A DNA stretch of 33,664 nucleotides. It comes from an uncultured Bacilli bacterium. Its GTDB lineage: Bacteria; Bacillota_I; Bacilli_A; RF39; UBA660. The notes beneath the pieces were generated by a model. The model was not told where the DNA came from and did no database searches. It was given only the letters and a program-made list of their open reading frames with translations. This document shows, in pieces, positions 6,479 to 33,662 of the stretch. A program made the position numbers and the translations under genes. Location of the stretch: contig CANQNL010000007.1 of NCBI GenBank assembly GCA_947625215.1, forward strand, positions 1-33,664, read 5' to 3'. Positions within the stretch are counted from its first letter, which is position 1, and each line of letters opens with the position of its first letter.

Positions 6479-9477
6479 TCTTCACTAATTTTTACATATC
6501 TGGTTAATTCTCCGATATTTATATTATTATAAGAAACTTTGTATTTTATTTCATATTCTCCAGGCTCGGTTAACGTTATTGTTTCGCCTGATTTATAATT
6601 CTTATATGGCGCTTTATCTTTAGTAACAGTGGCAGTTACAGTTACTTCAGAAGATAAGTCTTCACCATCTAGTGTTACATTAATAGGATGTTTAACATCT
6701 GTCCAAGTTGTAATTTCCTTATTCTTTCCGATGTTTTCTTCACCTACTAACTTTTTTTCAAAGTTGTTAGCATTAAGCCCATTATAATTAACTTTAACTT
6801 CAACTCCGCTACTTTCACAGCCACCATAACCAGAATAACTAGTTTTAATAATATATGATGGTGAAGCGGTAATTGGAAGTCTAATAGTTGCAGTATTTTT
6901 ATCGGTAGAAGTAACTTTGGTTAAACCGCTACTAGTTTTTAGATAAATATTATAGATAACTTTACCAAGAGTTCTTTCATTTATTCCCATTATGTAATTT
7001 AAGTATGTTGTTTGGTCTTTTGAAATAGCAAAGGCTTTATTAACAATTGGACTCCAATATGTTCTATTTAAAGCATCAGGTGTACTTATTGCTTTCCAAG
7101 AAAGAACAACATCACGGCCACCTTTAACTTCACCACTAACGTTAGTTACATTAGTAAGTTTATTATATCTATTTGATACTTCAGTAGGAACACTATCTTG
7201 AGTAAATAGTTCTTTTGTCTTCATACCATCAGGTGTTCCAGAACTTGGAAGTAATGGATAACCACAATATTTTTCAACAGTAACTTCTTGGATTGTATCA
7301 GGTTTTGTGAATTTAACATCTGATTTAAAGAAGTTTTTAGCTACTGCCTGGAATAATTTAGAGTTTTGGCTAGAACCAAATCTGTTATATCCTTTATTAA
7401 GATCTTCATAACCATACCATACAGCTATAGAATACTCATCATTATAACCAGCTACCCATAGGTCATTAACGGCACTATTTGGTAGTCTTCTAGCTTTAAT
7501 TGTTTTTTCATCGAAGTTAGATGTACCGGTTTTAGCAGCAAACTCGGAACCATTAATATTATTGTATTTACCTAAAGCGTTTTGACCAGTATCAACAAGC
7601 ATATCTGTTACCATATAAGCGGTATCTTTACTCATAACTTTAGTTTTATCGCCATCTACTTCAATTGTTTCATCATCTTTATCGAATACTACTTTTGTAA
7701 AACTATGGGGATCATTGTAATAACCATTATTAGCAAAAGCGGCATAGGCGGCAGCTACATCTAATGGTGATTCTCCAGTATAACCACCAATGGCGTGAGC
7801 TTCGTGTAATTTGCCATCAGACATAACTTCTGGATGTAAGCCTAAGCTAGTTACAAAATTTTTAATATCAGAATTTTTAAGACTTTGGAATGTTTTTAAA
7901 GCTGGGATATTTCGTGAATCAACTAAAGCTTCACGAATAGTAATAATACCTTTATATCTTCCATCCCAGTTATTAATTTCTGTTCCATCACTATAAGTGT
8001 GTTTATTATCGATAATTGGATGATAAGGGTTCCAACCTAAATATTCTACGGCAGGGCCATAATCGAATAATGGTTTAGCTGTTGAACCAATTTGTCTTTT
8101 CATCATTGTTGCTTTATTATATCCTTTGGCTCCTGTACTATTACGTCCAGCACCAACGGCAACAATTTCTCCGGTTTTTGTTTCTACGACAGCTACACCA
8201 GCATCAACACGATCATTTTCCCAACTATAATTTGTACCGTTCATAATTTTATTAACTTCATCTTGTTTAGCACGATCCATAGTTGTATATATTTTCATTG
8301 AGTATGAATAAGGATCATACCCAGTTCTTTCCTTAACCTCAACAGCAACAGTATCAATAAATCCTTGATATTGTGATGAATCGGTATAAGCAGAACCACC
8401 TTTAATAACAATTCTATCAACAGTCATTTTTTTAGCAATTTTATATTCATTTTCATTAATATAACCGTGACGTTTCATTAATTTTAAGACCGTTAAACGT
8501 CTTTTCTCTGTTTTATCAGGATTAAGATTAGGATCATAAGCTACTGGTGATTGGAATAATCCAGCTATCATTGCGGCTTCAGATATATTTAAATCTTTAG
8601 CAGATTTTTTAAAGTAAGTTTTAGCTGCTTGTTCAACACCATATGCTCCACTACCTAAATAATATGAGTTAGCATAAAATTCTAGAATTTCTTCTTTAGT
8701 ATAATTACTTTCAATTTGGAAAATTGAAGAATAAATATCCGTGAATTTACGTTTAATACCAGCAAATCCACTTGATGTTGTAGAAGTTAATTGGTTTTTA
8801 GAAACCTGCATTGTAAGAGTAGATGCACCACCAGCTCCAGAGTTACCAGCTACTTGTCCTAACGAAGCTTTTAAGAAACGTGGTAAGTCAAATCCATTGT
8901 GTTGGAAAAATCTAGAATCTTCAGTTGCTACAATAGCATTTATTAGTGATTCAGACATTTCATCATATTTGATTTTTTCACGCATTTCACTACCTAACTG
9001 GGCAAATTGTTTTCCGTCACTATCATATAAAGTACTTGCTTCTTTAGTATATAGTTTATCAGGATCAAATTTATCAGCACTTACTGCGATGTAAATAACA
9101 AAAGCAATGCCTAGTAGAAGTATAAAAATGAATATGCTTAATAGAACTAATAAAATAATTTTTCCAATTTTCTTCTTATTAACTTTTTTCTTTTTAGCCA
9201 TATTATCACTACTTTCCATTGGCTTATATAAATCTGGTTTTTCTATATTTTTTTCCTTTTTTGGTTTTTCTTTAGTTTTTTCTTTTGGCTTTTTCTTAGC
9301 TCTTTTAATGTATGGAATAATCCATAGTAAATTGATTAAAATTGCGGCTATTAAAACGATAAAGAAATTTATAATAAATGAACCAACAATTAAAATAGCA
9401 ATACTTAAAAGTATCATAATAATAATTTTAGGATTATGTTTAATATAGTTTATCATATCTAATATTTTATTTTTCAT
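6466..9477 (-). CDS. ponA: Class A penicillin-binding protein (PBP1-type glycosyltransferase/transpeptidase)
   Basis: This 1003-residue bifunctional enzyme polymerises and cross-links peptidoglycan. The GT51 domain shows EDSRFFQHNG (catalytic Glu186) and GGASTLTMQ (216-224). The transpeptidase shows STAK (Ser465), SRN (521-523) and KTGTS (649-653). After about residue 800 come an Fn3/Ig-like region and a second Ig-like domain. Unusually, the canonical lysine-rich tail and membrane anchor (about 94-133) are preceded by 92 extra residues. These contain a long hydrophobic stretch (17-57, perhaps two helices) and a KPKEK-type linker. ATG 9477 has the SD GGAGGGG and overlaps the recU end by 11 bases. 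An internal ATG at residue 93 would give a normal-looking PBP. The recU-ponA pairing matches Bacillus. Confidence 0.95.
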   Translation of the reverse strand: MKNKILDMINYIKHNPKIIIMILLSIAILIVGSFIINFFIVLIAAILINLLWIIPYIKRAKKKPKEKTKEKPKKEKNIEKPDLYKPMESSDNMAKKKKVNKKKIGKIILLVLLSIFIFILLLGIAFVIYIAVSADKFDPDKLYTKEASTLYDSDGKQFAQLGSEMREKIKYDEMSESLINAIVATEDSRFFQHNGFDLPRFLKASLGQVAGNSGAGGASTLTMQVSKNQLTSTTSSGFAGIKRKFTDIYSSIFQIESNYTKEEILEFYANSYYLGSGAYGVEQAAKTYFKKSAKDLNISEAAMIAGLFQSPVAYDPNLNPDKTEKRRLTVLKLMKRHGYINENEYKIAKKMTVDRIVIKGGSAYTDSSQYQGFIDTVAVEVKERTGYDPYSYSMKIYTTMDRAKQDEVNKIMNGTNYSWENDRVDAGVAVVETKTGEIVAVGAGRNSTGAKGYNKATMMKRQIGSTAKPLFDYGPAVEYLGWNPYHPIIDNKHTYSDGTEINNWDGRYKGIITIREALVDSRNIPALKTFQSLKNSDIKNFVTSLGLHPEVMSDGKLHEAHAIGGYTGESPLDVAAAYAAFANNGYYNDPHSFTKVVFDKDDETIEVDGDKTKVMSKDTAYMVTDMLVDTGQNALGKYNNINGSEFAAKTGTSNFDEKTIKARRLPNSAVNDLWVAGYNDEYSIAVWYGYEDLNKGYNRFGSSQNSKLFQAVAKNFFKSDVKFTKPDTIQEVTVEKYCGYPLLPSSGTPDGMKTKELFTQDSVPTEVSNRYNKLTNVTNVSGEVKGGRDVVLSWKAISTPDALNRTYWSPIVNKAFAISKDQTTYLNYIMGINERTLGKVIYNIYLKTSSGLTKVTSTDKNTATIRLPITASPSYIIKTSYSGYGGCESSGVEVKVNYNGLNANNFEKKLVGEENIGKNKEITTWTDVKHPINVTLDGEDLSSEVTVTATVTKDKAPYKNYKSGETITLTEPGEYEIKYKVSYNNINIGELTRYVKISEESDS

Positions 9478-10048
9478 TTTCCCCTCCGTCAAAATATAAT
9501 TTATTTATAATTTCTAAATAATCTACCCTAGGATTATATCGGTCTTTAATTATATAACCATTTTTTTCAAAATACTCAAGAGGAATAGATTTCCTTTTAC
9601 TATTATTTAGAAAATTTAATAAGCATTCAATAGTGAGTAAAAATGTTTTGTTTAAAGTTGTAAATCTAACAATTATAAAACCAATCCCACCGTGTCTATA
9701 AATGTTTTCTAGATGCTTAATTTGGTGATCGTGAATATTATAAAGTGGGAATGCGGTTTTACTGGCTACTTCTTTAGCTTCAAAGTCAATGTATTTCCCT
9801 TTATAAATTCCATTATAATCTGTTGTCGATGGTGTCCTAAAATAACCTTCTTTAATTACCGCTTCTAATCTCGATGGATAATCAACTTTTGAGATAGTAA
9901 TAGGAGTAGGTTTTTTATATATGATAGCAATATCATTTAAACGATAAAATTCATTAGTAGTACTTAAATCATTTTCCAGTCCCATACCTCTATTACCATA
10001 TGAATTATATTTGTGTATGCTTTTTTTTACGCCTGTAGGATATTTCAT
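9467..10048 (-). CDS. recU: Holliday junction resolvase RecU
   Basis: The 193-residue protein matches RecU along its length. It has the N-terminal SYGNRGMGLENDL, the KKPTPITI segment, and the nuclease core STTDYNGIYKGKYIDFEAKE with the PD-(D/E)xK-type acidic and Lys residues. HDHQIKHL and the C-terminal NPRVDYLEIINKLYF are also there. It cleaves Holliday junctions in recombination and chromosome segregation. ATG 10048 (MKYPTG) is preferred because GGTG lies just upstream. ATG 10060 has no SD, and a TATAAT at 10070-10065 on the minus strand would place the transcript start near it, giving a short leader. No good -35 is visible. It is the first gene of the recU-PBP operon. Confidence 0.94.
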   Translation of the reverse strand: MKYPTGVKKSIHKYNSYGNRGMGLENDLSTTNEFYRLNDIAIIYKKPTPITISKVDYPSRLEAVIKEGYFRTPSTTDYNGIYKGKYIDFEAKEVASKTAFPLYNIHDHQIKHLENIYRHGGIGFIIVRFTTLNKTFLLTIECLLNFLNNSKRKSIPLEYFEKNGYIIKDRYNPRVDYLEIINKLYFDGGENEK

Positions 10049-10182
10049 ATTAAACACCATTATAATTATACTATAAAAGAAAGAAATTTTCTATATAAAA
10101 TGATAAAGTTCTAATTTTGATAAGTATTGTCGAAAGTAATGAAAAAAAATAAGGTAAGTATTAGAATATGAATGGTGACAAT

Positions 10183-10303: not shown

Positions 10304-10333
10304 TTGTCAAAACCTGGGGGGGGGGGGTATAAT
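10304..10333 (+). promoter_or_regulatory. Poly-G-spacer promoter of a surface protein, probably phase-variable
   Basis: The -35 is TTGTCA (10304-10309, 5 of 6 matches) and the -10 a perfect TATAAT (10328-10333). The 18-base spacer between them is AAACCT plus 12 consecutive G. Gain or loss of a G by slippage would change the spacer by one base and so the promoter strength. The next gene starts at 10366 with AGGGTGA as SD. A near copy ends the window (33631-33662). Confidence 0.85.
10316..10327 (+). repeat. Homopolymer run of 12 G inside the promoter spacer
   Basis: This run and the one at 33644-33656 are the only G runs longer than a handful of bases in a window that is otherwise extremely AT-rich. 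Its exact length in any assembly is a consensus of possibly mixed reads. Confidence 0.9.
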
Positions 10334-10365
10334 ATACTTAAGATGAATTAAATAGGGTGATTAAT

Positions 10366-11394
10366 ATGCTTGAAAAGAAAAAAAGAAATATAATTATATT
10401 CACGTTGTGCACAGTCTTACTCCTTATGACTATTGGTTATGCCGCCTTTAACACCTTTTTAAATATAAATGGAACAACAAGTATAACCAGTAACTGGGAT
10501 ATAAGAATAACAAATATTACTAGTAAAGCTAAAGAAGGCGATGCTTATGATATTGAAGAGCCAAGTCACACAGATTTAGAAGCTACATTTAAAACAGGAT
10601 TAAAAAGCCCAGGTGATTCTATTACTTATGATATAACCGTCGAAAATAAAGGTACTTTTAATGCTTATTTAGAAAAAATAACTATCAATAAAAAAGATAA
10701 TCCAGCAATTATATTTGAATCAAGTGGTTTAAAGGAAAATGATGAACTTGCGCCAGATACATCAAAAATATTAACTATAAAAGTGACATATAATCCTGAT
10801 ATAACTGAAGACCCAGAAGATAAAAGTGCAGATTTTACAGTAGAACTTGATTTTGGACAAGATATATTTGCTAAAGAAACTGTTACTTGGAAGTGCCCAA
10901 ATAGTTATAGTTCTAAAGATGAACCAGGACCTGATATGAATTGTACTAAAGAGACTTCTGGAACTGTAATTACAACTTGCCCAAGTGGATGTTCTGTAAG
11001 TGGTAAAAGCTGCACAGGTACAGTTAAGTCTCAGCCTGTATGTTTAGTCGGTTATGTTATGGCTCTTGGTATAGGATGGACTTGTTGTAATCCATCTAGT
11101 CCCTTTGGTGAAACGCAAATGGCTTGTAATCATCCGCAAGCTTACGGTGTTGTTACCTCACAAACATACAATTGGAGTTGCGGTGGCTATAGTGTTGTAT
11201 CACCGTGTGGCTATTGTCAATTAAATTGTAGTGATGTTACACCAACATTTTCGTGTCAATCAGGTTATACCCCAAATGGTAGTGGATCTTCAATGACCTG
11301 CATTAAAACAGAAACAGCTAAGCCAGAGCAAGTAACTACTTATACTTGCCCAGATGGATATAGATTAGAAGATAAAAAATGTTATAAAGAATAA
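10366..11394 (+). CDS. Exported Cys-rich surface protein with TasA-like N-terminal domain
   Basis: The 342-residue product begins with a signal-peptide-like segment (IIIFTLCTVLLLMTIGYAAF). A beta-rich domain to about residue 170 follows, with TSNWDIRI and SPGDSITYDITVENKGT. These are also seen in the protein at 19202, and are of the TasA/camelysin, SipW-cognate type. The remaining half is a tail with 17 Cys, many in C-P-x-G-(Y/C)-like units such as TCPSGCS and YTCPDGYRLEDKKCY, suggesting disulfide-knotted modules outside the cell. There is no LPXTG or membrane anchor at the end. ATG 10366 follows AGGGTGA; GTG 10357 lies in that SD. Transcription is from the poly-G promoter, so expression is likely switched on and off. 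The function is unknown; adhesion or surface variation is inference. Confidence 0.85.
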   Translation: MLEKKKRNIIIFTLCTVLLLMTIGYAAFNTFLNINGTTSITSNWDIRITNITSKAKEGDAYDIEEPSHTDLEATFKTGLKSPGDSITYDITVENKGTFNAYLEKITINKKDNPAIIFESSGLKENDELAPDTSKILTIKVTYNPDITEDPEDKSADFTVELDFGQDIFAKETVTWKCPNSYSSKDEPGPDMNCTKETSGTVITTCPSGCSVSGKSCTGTVKSQPVCLVGYVMALGIGWTCCNPSSPFGETQMACNHPQAYGVVTSQTYNWSCGGYSVVSPCGYCQLNCSDVTPTFSCQSGYTPNGSGSSMTCIKTETAKPEQVTTYTCPDGYRLEDKKCYKE

Positions 11395-33630: not shown

Positions 33631-33662
33631 TTGCCAAAAACCTGGGGGGGGGGGGGTATAAT
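33631..33662 (+). promoter_or_regulatory. Second poly-G-spacer promoter, at the window end
   Basis: TTGCCA (33631-33636) and TATAAT (33657-33662) are 20 bases apart. The spacer is AAAACCT plus 13 G. Flanks match the first copy closely (AAAACCTG after the -35, TATAATAT at the -10). At 20 bases the spacer is longer than optimal, so this copy may be in a low-expression state. The gene it drives lies beyond the window. Confidence 0.82.

Follow-up and report, generated by a model that had tools for sequence, protein, structure and literature searches.

Poly-G promoter spacers as probable phase-variable switches of a dispersed surface-protein family in an uncultured Bacilli genome

Described promoter switches and the G12 promoter

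Transcriptional phase variation by slippage within the promoter spacer is textbook biology in Neisseria, Bordetella and some mycoplasmas, where it usually concerns one or a few genes. In Neisseria meningitidis, surface expression of porA is high with 11 G in the promoter spacer, about twofold lower with 10 G and 13-fold lower with 9 G (PMC3639595). In Mycoplasma hyorhinis, a poly-A tract occurs in every vlp promoter, and transcription is switched ON or OFF (reviewed in PMC10502178). Mycoplasma bovoculi possesses a five-gene array, vpbA-E, with a T tract in each putative promoter (PMC3931370), and in Mycoplasma mycoides a change of repeat length inside the promoter spacer switches the surface protein Vmm (PMC10502178).

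The promoter described here lies in what we call the window, the whole stretch of DNA that was analysed: 33,664 nucleotides from an uncultured member of the Bacilli. Like porA, it has a poly-G tract of similar length (9-11 G in porA) between its -35 and -10 elements, and precedes the gene for a predicted surface protein. Unlike porA, which is a single gene of a Gram-negative pathogen, it is one of at least 30 such loci in one 1.2 Mb uncultured Bacilli genome, known from sequence alone. With vlp it shares membership of a multigene surface family in which each gene has a homopolymer promoter of its own, but the tract there is poly-A and here poly-G (poly-T in congeners), and the loci here are scattered over many contigs. 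The vpbA-E genes, too, are paralogous surface genes with homopolymer promoters, and of the known systems they are the one that the poly-T promoters of the congeners most resemble; however, they are five genes in one array, the likeness drawn here is one of promoter layout, and the effect of the vpb tracts is also putative. Vmm is comparable in having a repeat in the promoter spacer, although a dinucleotide repeat rather than a homopolymer. In common with this class of spacer-repeat phase-variable promoters, the window system has a tract between the -35 and -10 elements, a tract length that is polymorphic between paralogues and species while the flanks are constant, and products predicted to be exported; we propose membership in the class for anatomy only. 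The earlier note on this DNA was not aware that any such case had been reported for this group of Bacilli. A search of open-licence papers likewise turned up no account of one in these Bacilli, but the Mycoplasmatales, which are placed in class Bacilli by GTDB (PMC10868615), do have poly-A and poly-T promoter switches (vlp and vpb), and to that extent the statement calls for qualification.

The features of the window to which we refer are the following:

10304-10309, + strand: -35 element TTGTCA (TTGCCA or TTGTCA at the equivalent place in paralogous promoters)
10310-10315, + strand: AAACCT, the constant part of the spacer (own-genome consensus AAAACCT, species-specific in relatives)
10316-10327, + strand: run of 12 G, proposed to act as the slippage dial (paralogous copies have 9-17 G)
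10328-10333, + strand: -10 element TATAAT (adjoined, as TATAAT or ATATAAT, by 30 of the 36 G runs of the genome)
10334-10365, + strand: leader, with ribosome-binding site AGGGTG at 10354-10359 (paralogues keep the leader TATAATATACTTAGAGTAAACTAGGTAAGGAG)
10366-11394, + strand: coding sequence, 342 aa, for a predicted exported, membrane-anchored surface protein
10372-10458, + strand: N-terminal signal/anchor helix, residues 3-31, found family-wide (paralogue alignment, structure model)
10495-10863, + strand: predicted Ig-like beta-sandwich domain, residues 44-166, common to the family (pLDDT by block about 77-93 for most of the domain)
10864-11391, + strand: variable Cys-rich C-terminal module (from comparison with paralogue L047)
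33631-33662, + strand: second promoter, TTGCCA-AAAACCT-G13-TATAAT (L038), at the contig end, with the same layout as the G12 promoter

The earlier note's description of TTGTCA and TATAAT around an 18-base spacer with 12 G is exact by coordinates (10304-10333). This promoter, with its 18-bp spacer between the -35 and -10 elements, is the top promoter match (11/12) in the 5 kb that were scanned, and its transcript would start a few bases past the -10 box. Under an i.i.d. model, 2.9e-5 runs of G12 are expected in the window, both strands counted; G12 and the G13 of the second promoter (33644-33656) aside, the window has no G run longer than 5. Several contigs of this genome, like that of the window, stop at or near such G-tract promoters.

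A dispersed family of promoters and surface proteins

The window genome is AT-rich (1.206 Mb in 73 contigs, 92% complete) and contains, on either strand, 36 runs of at least 8 G. Thirty of these directly adjoin TATAAT or ATATAAT, five are truncated by contig ends and one (L048) is unrelated. The count of such promoters is a lower bound because copies with 7 G are also present (L369 and L373). The earlier note spoke of a single switch; the switch reading stands, and its scale was understated, at least 30 such promoters being found genome-wide. Each copy precedes a different gene for a predicted surface protein, and promoter, leader and first codons are near-identical between copies. The near-constant flanks can be given in short form as TTGCCAAAAACCT[G]TATAAT...AAGGAG...ATG, and in fuller context as AAAATACTTGCCAAAAACCT[G]TATAATATACTTAGAGTAAACTAGGTAAGGAGAAAAATGTATGAG. 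The number of G is what differs, 12 being the mode. Among 24 complete copies, for which TATAAT was the inclusion criterion, tract length varies more than anything else in the block (2.23 bits vs 0.25-1.6 bits for the upstream columns). Four pairs of copies have identical flanks (14 bases upstream and 24 downstream), and in three of them the number of G differs nonetheless (17/12, 9/13 and 12/11).

For the gene behind the G12 promoter, ATG 10366, 32 bases past the -10 box, is better placed as the start than GTG 10357 of the open-reading-frame list because paralogues align from that methionine. The earlier note had called the product an exported Cys-rich protein, which agrees with its hydrophobic N-terminal helix and Cys-rich C-terminal half. 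In the structure model of the 342-aa protein, the N-terminal helix is followed by an Ig-like beta-sandwich, predicted with confidence, and by the Cys-rich half, for which the prediction is poor. Residues 44-166 give weak matches, below the cut-off, to DUF7507, DUF11 and HYDIN-Ig, and fold comparison of the model returned generic beta-sandwich matches only, none at E <= 0.001. Over the first ~490 nt, the gene is 98.4% identical to L047 (window 10366-10860, L047:1552-2046), after which identity drops abruptly. This drop after 10860 indicates that genes of the family are mosaics, formed by recombination between members.

The products encoded behind the tracts are paralogous: a common anchor, IIIxSLCGVLLLMTIGYAAF, and a shared domain are followed by C-terminal modules that differ. 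By inspection, the anchor contains no lipobox. Mycoplasma Vlp proteins are lipoproteins; the window family has G in place of poly-A in its tracts, and an anchor without a lipobox cysteine. The N-terminal domain has 64 matches in the genome, and since these exceed the tracts, not all copies of the family lie behind a tract; several are preceded by ordinary promoters. Domains found in further proteins behind tracts, both in this genome and in its congeners, are Pretoxin-HINT, BspA-type leucine-rich repeats, Laminin-G-like lectin and glycine-rich ALK/LTK-type domains. Three tract-driven members of the family (L327:143-1672, L327:1876-3393 and L328:3053-4591) end in a Pretoxin-HINT-like self-processing domain, with only a short tail after a VHN motif.

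Recurrence in relatives, with G or with T

Of the 44 genomes of the genus, 11 contain the pattern G8TATAAT; in a set of 395 genomes taken from the class, 30 do, with 78 sites outside the window genome. The reversed pattern, used as a control, gave one match in the 395 class genomes; poly-C instead of poly-G was found in 0 of the 44 congeners, and among 2.9 million viral contigs there were four matching stretches. A scan of named genomes returned, among the matches listed, metagenome assemblies of Bacilli and Clostridia, many from animal gut, together with an assembly of Anaeroplasma bactoclasticum, Streptococcus and Lactococcus. In the relatives, as in the window genome, the constant flank is species-specific and the number of G variable. 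G030, for example, has CTTGAAATTTTGAT[11-14 G]TATAATATAATTGGTGAATAATATG, with TATAAT directly after the tract. In the comparison of related assemblies that the earlier note proposed, the G number varies between paralogues and between species, in flanks that are near-constant. One genome, G416 (C6; L242, L243), has an array of seven different exported-protein genes, each with a TTGACA-10 nt-G8/9-TATAAT promoter, and here the short tracts hardly differ between paralogues.

Of 133 tracts, 125 have a -35-like TTG hexamer that gives a spacer of 14-27 bp. Across 36 genomes, the length of the constant part is negatively correlated with the number of G (Spearman -0.64, p 2e-5). The total spacer is mostly 17-20 bp, and none of 20,000 permutations gave so small a variance. 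These figures indicate that the tract is a promoter spacer, in which constant part and G number compensate for each other. Promoters without G tracts in DNA of the genus have a 17-bp peak (14 vs 5-7 at 16 and 18 bp), and a control with reversed sequence shows a weak 17-bp peak as well (7); a local spacer optimum of 17 bp is weakly suggested. A secretion-type hydrophobic N terminus is predicted for 49 of 61 ORFs behind tracts vs 111 of 471 other ORFs at the same loci (Fisher 5.5e-18, a value that is optimistic because paralogues from the same species are not independent). The remaining 12 of the 61 are not secretion-type. In G007 (L071, L169), the gene behind the sole G13 spacer promoter encodes a 226-aa protein that lacks a secretion signal, which shows that the device extends beyond surface genes.

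The base of the tract is not always G. G032, which is without G8TATAAT, has at least six family members preceded by TTACTTG[15-20 T] and then (G)ATTTATACT, in near-constant flanks (L382, L384, L385, L387, L389 and L392; further congener loci are L401-L430). TTACTTG followed by ten T, in a promoter-like position, occurs in 26 of 44 congeners, and in none in the reversed control; the very long T runs (35-66) seen in some congeners may be assembly errors. Sixteen of the 17 readable genes behind poly-T are secretion-type, and most belong to the same surface family as those behind poly-G. Poly-T is apparently a T-based version of the promoter switch. That the base should be swapped and the position kept would be hard to explain unless slippage itself were selected.

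The slot beside recU (window 9467-10060) is occupied by tract-driven promoters in the window genome, G016 and G025, by a G19 run at a contig end in G021, by tract-less surface genes in G005 and G022, and by other genes in most congeners. Comparison of orthologues by way of this neighbour found that the slot is not ancestral, and yielded no clean orthologous tract pair.

Proposed switching and its alternatives

Recurrence, length variation, compensation and surface targets all point to a phase-variable surface-protein promoter, and we consider it very probable that the G12 promoter is subject to slipped-strand phase variation of transcription, within a large multi-locus surface repertoire. G12 would be the variable part of the spacer of a sigma-70-type promoter. 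During replication, slipped-strand mispairing would add or remove G bases within a clone; the change in G number would alter the distance and the twist between -35 and -10; and the altered geometry would raise, lower or shut off transcription of the gene at 10366-11394. By analogy with porA, changes in tract length should adjust the level of transcription. A spacer of 18 bp, as in the window copy, is close to the usual optimum and probably corresponds to the expressed state; the 19-20 bp of many sister copies probably mean weak transcription or none. Metagenome assemblies can miscount a homopolymer by one base. Were each promoter to switch independently, the surface of a clone would become combinatorially mixed, and the purpose might be host immunity, phage escape or diversity of adhesion. 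The earlier note had proposed a probable phase-variable switch of a surface protein, and the comparisons give this its support: at least 30 paralogous promoters, the layout in relatives, the compensated spacer, the enrichment of secretion-type products and the interchange of T and G.

Three other explanations of the G runs merit consideration. The run might be a static spacer, kept by descent and by copying of a promoter-plus-signal-peptide cassette, with no role in switching. Duplication of such a cassette fits the near-identical promoters, leaders and first codons, and the short G8-9 tracts of the G416 array are indeed nearly invariant. Tract length, however, outvaries every flanking column, the same layout is seen again in many genera, where the flanks are unrelated, and in congeners, where T replaces G, and a static spacer would need no long homopolymer each time; the interrupted tracts of G013 and G023, moreover, imply that an uninterrupted run is not the sole form tolerated. 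We regard a static spacer as unlikely. The mosaic genes (98.4% identity between the window gene and L047 over ~490 nt, then divergence) and the size of the family, with its 64 N-terminal copies, would instead suit a recombination or G-quadruplex element, like the pilE G4, that drives gene conversion between paralogues rather than tuning a promoter. Yet the run sits between -35 and -10, in a spacer whose length is compensated; most tracts have 9-14 G, which is short for a three-layer intramolecular quadruplex; and the congeners use poly-T, which forms no quadruplex, all of which makes this explanation highly improbable.

Finally, the runs might be artefacts of sequencing or assembly. Two-colour sequencers are known to produce erroneous poly-G, and many contigs break off at tracts or close to them, but such breaks are to be expected where the same promoter and signal-peptide DNA occurs about 30 times over. 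Tracts also occur inside contigs, in one precise promoter context and in independent assemblies from different projects, and the reversed pattern and poly-C give essentially nothing; that all of this should be artefact is scarcely credible.

Compared with the known switches of one or a few genes, three things are new in the promoters described here: their scale (at least 30 poly-G promoters, dispersed over a single reduced genome), the fact that G and T replace each other within a genus, and their wide spread in uncultured Bacilli and Clostridia. Taken together, we think it likely that they form a genome-wide engine of surface diversity: at least 30 independent switches in 1.2 Mb, with a spacer base that is interchangeable between species, modules shuffled by recombination, and a device widespread in uncultured gut Bacilli and Clostridia. 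Gene content would then not suffice to predict which surface proteins a strain of such a microbe expresses. The naturally occurring range of tract lengths and bases amounts to a ready-made experiment on the rules of promoter spacing, and the switch reading is directly testable on existing metagenome reads. There is a practical warning, too, in that tracts and repeated leaders fragment assemblies of such genomes.

Loss of mismatch repair was considered as a general cause of slippage and rejected, MutL being present in 44 of 44 genomes of the genus and MutS in 42 of 44. In the window genome (92% complete), MutL is present and MutS (domain I) was not found, which could be an assembly gap or a real loss. 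G tracts interrupted by A (GGGGGGGAGGG and similar) occupy the same promoter position at L396 and L399 (G013) and at L378 (G023), and are possibly locked or decaying switches.
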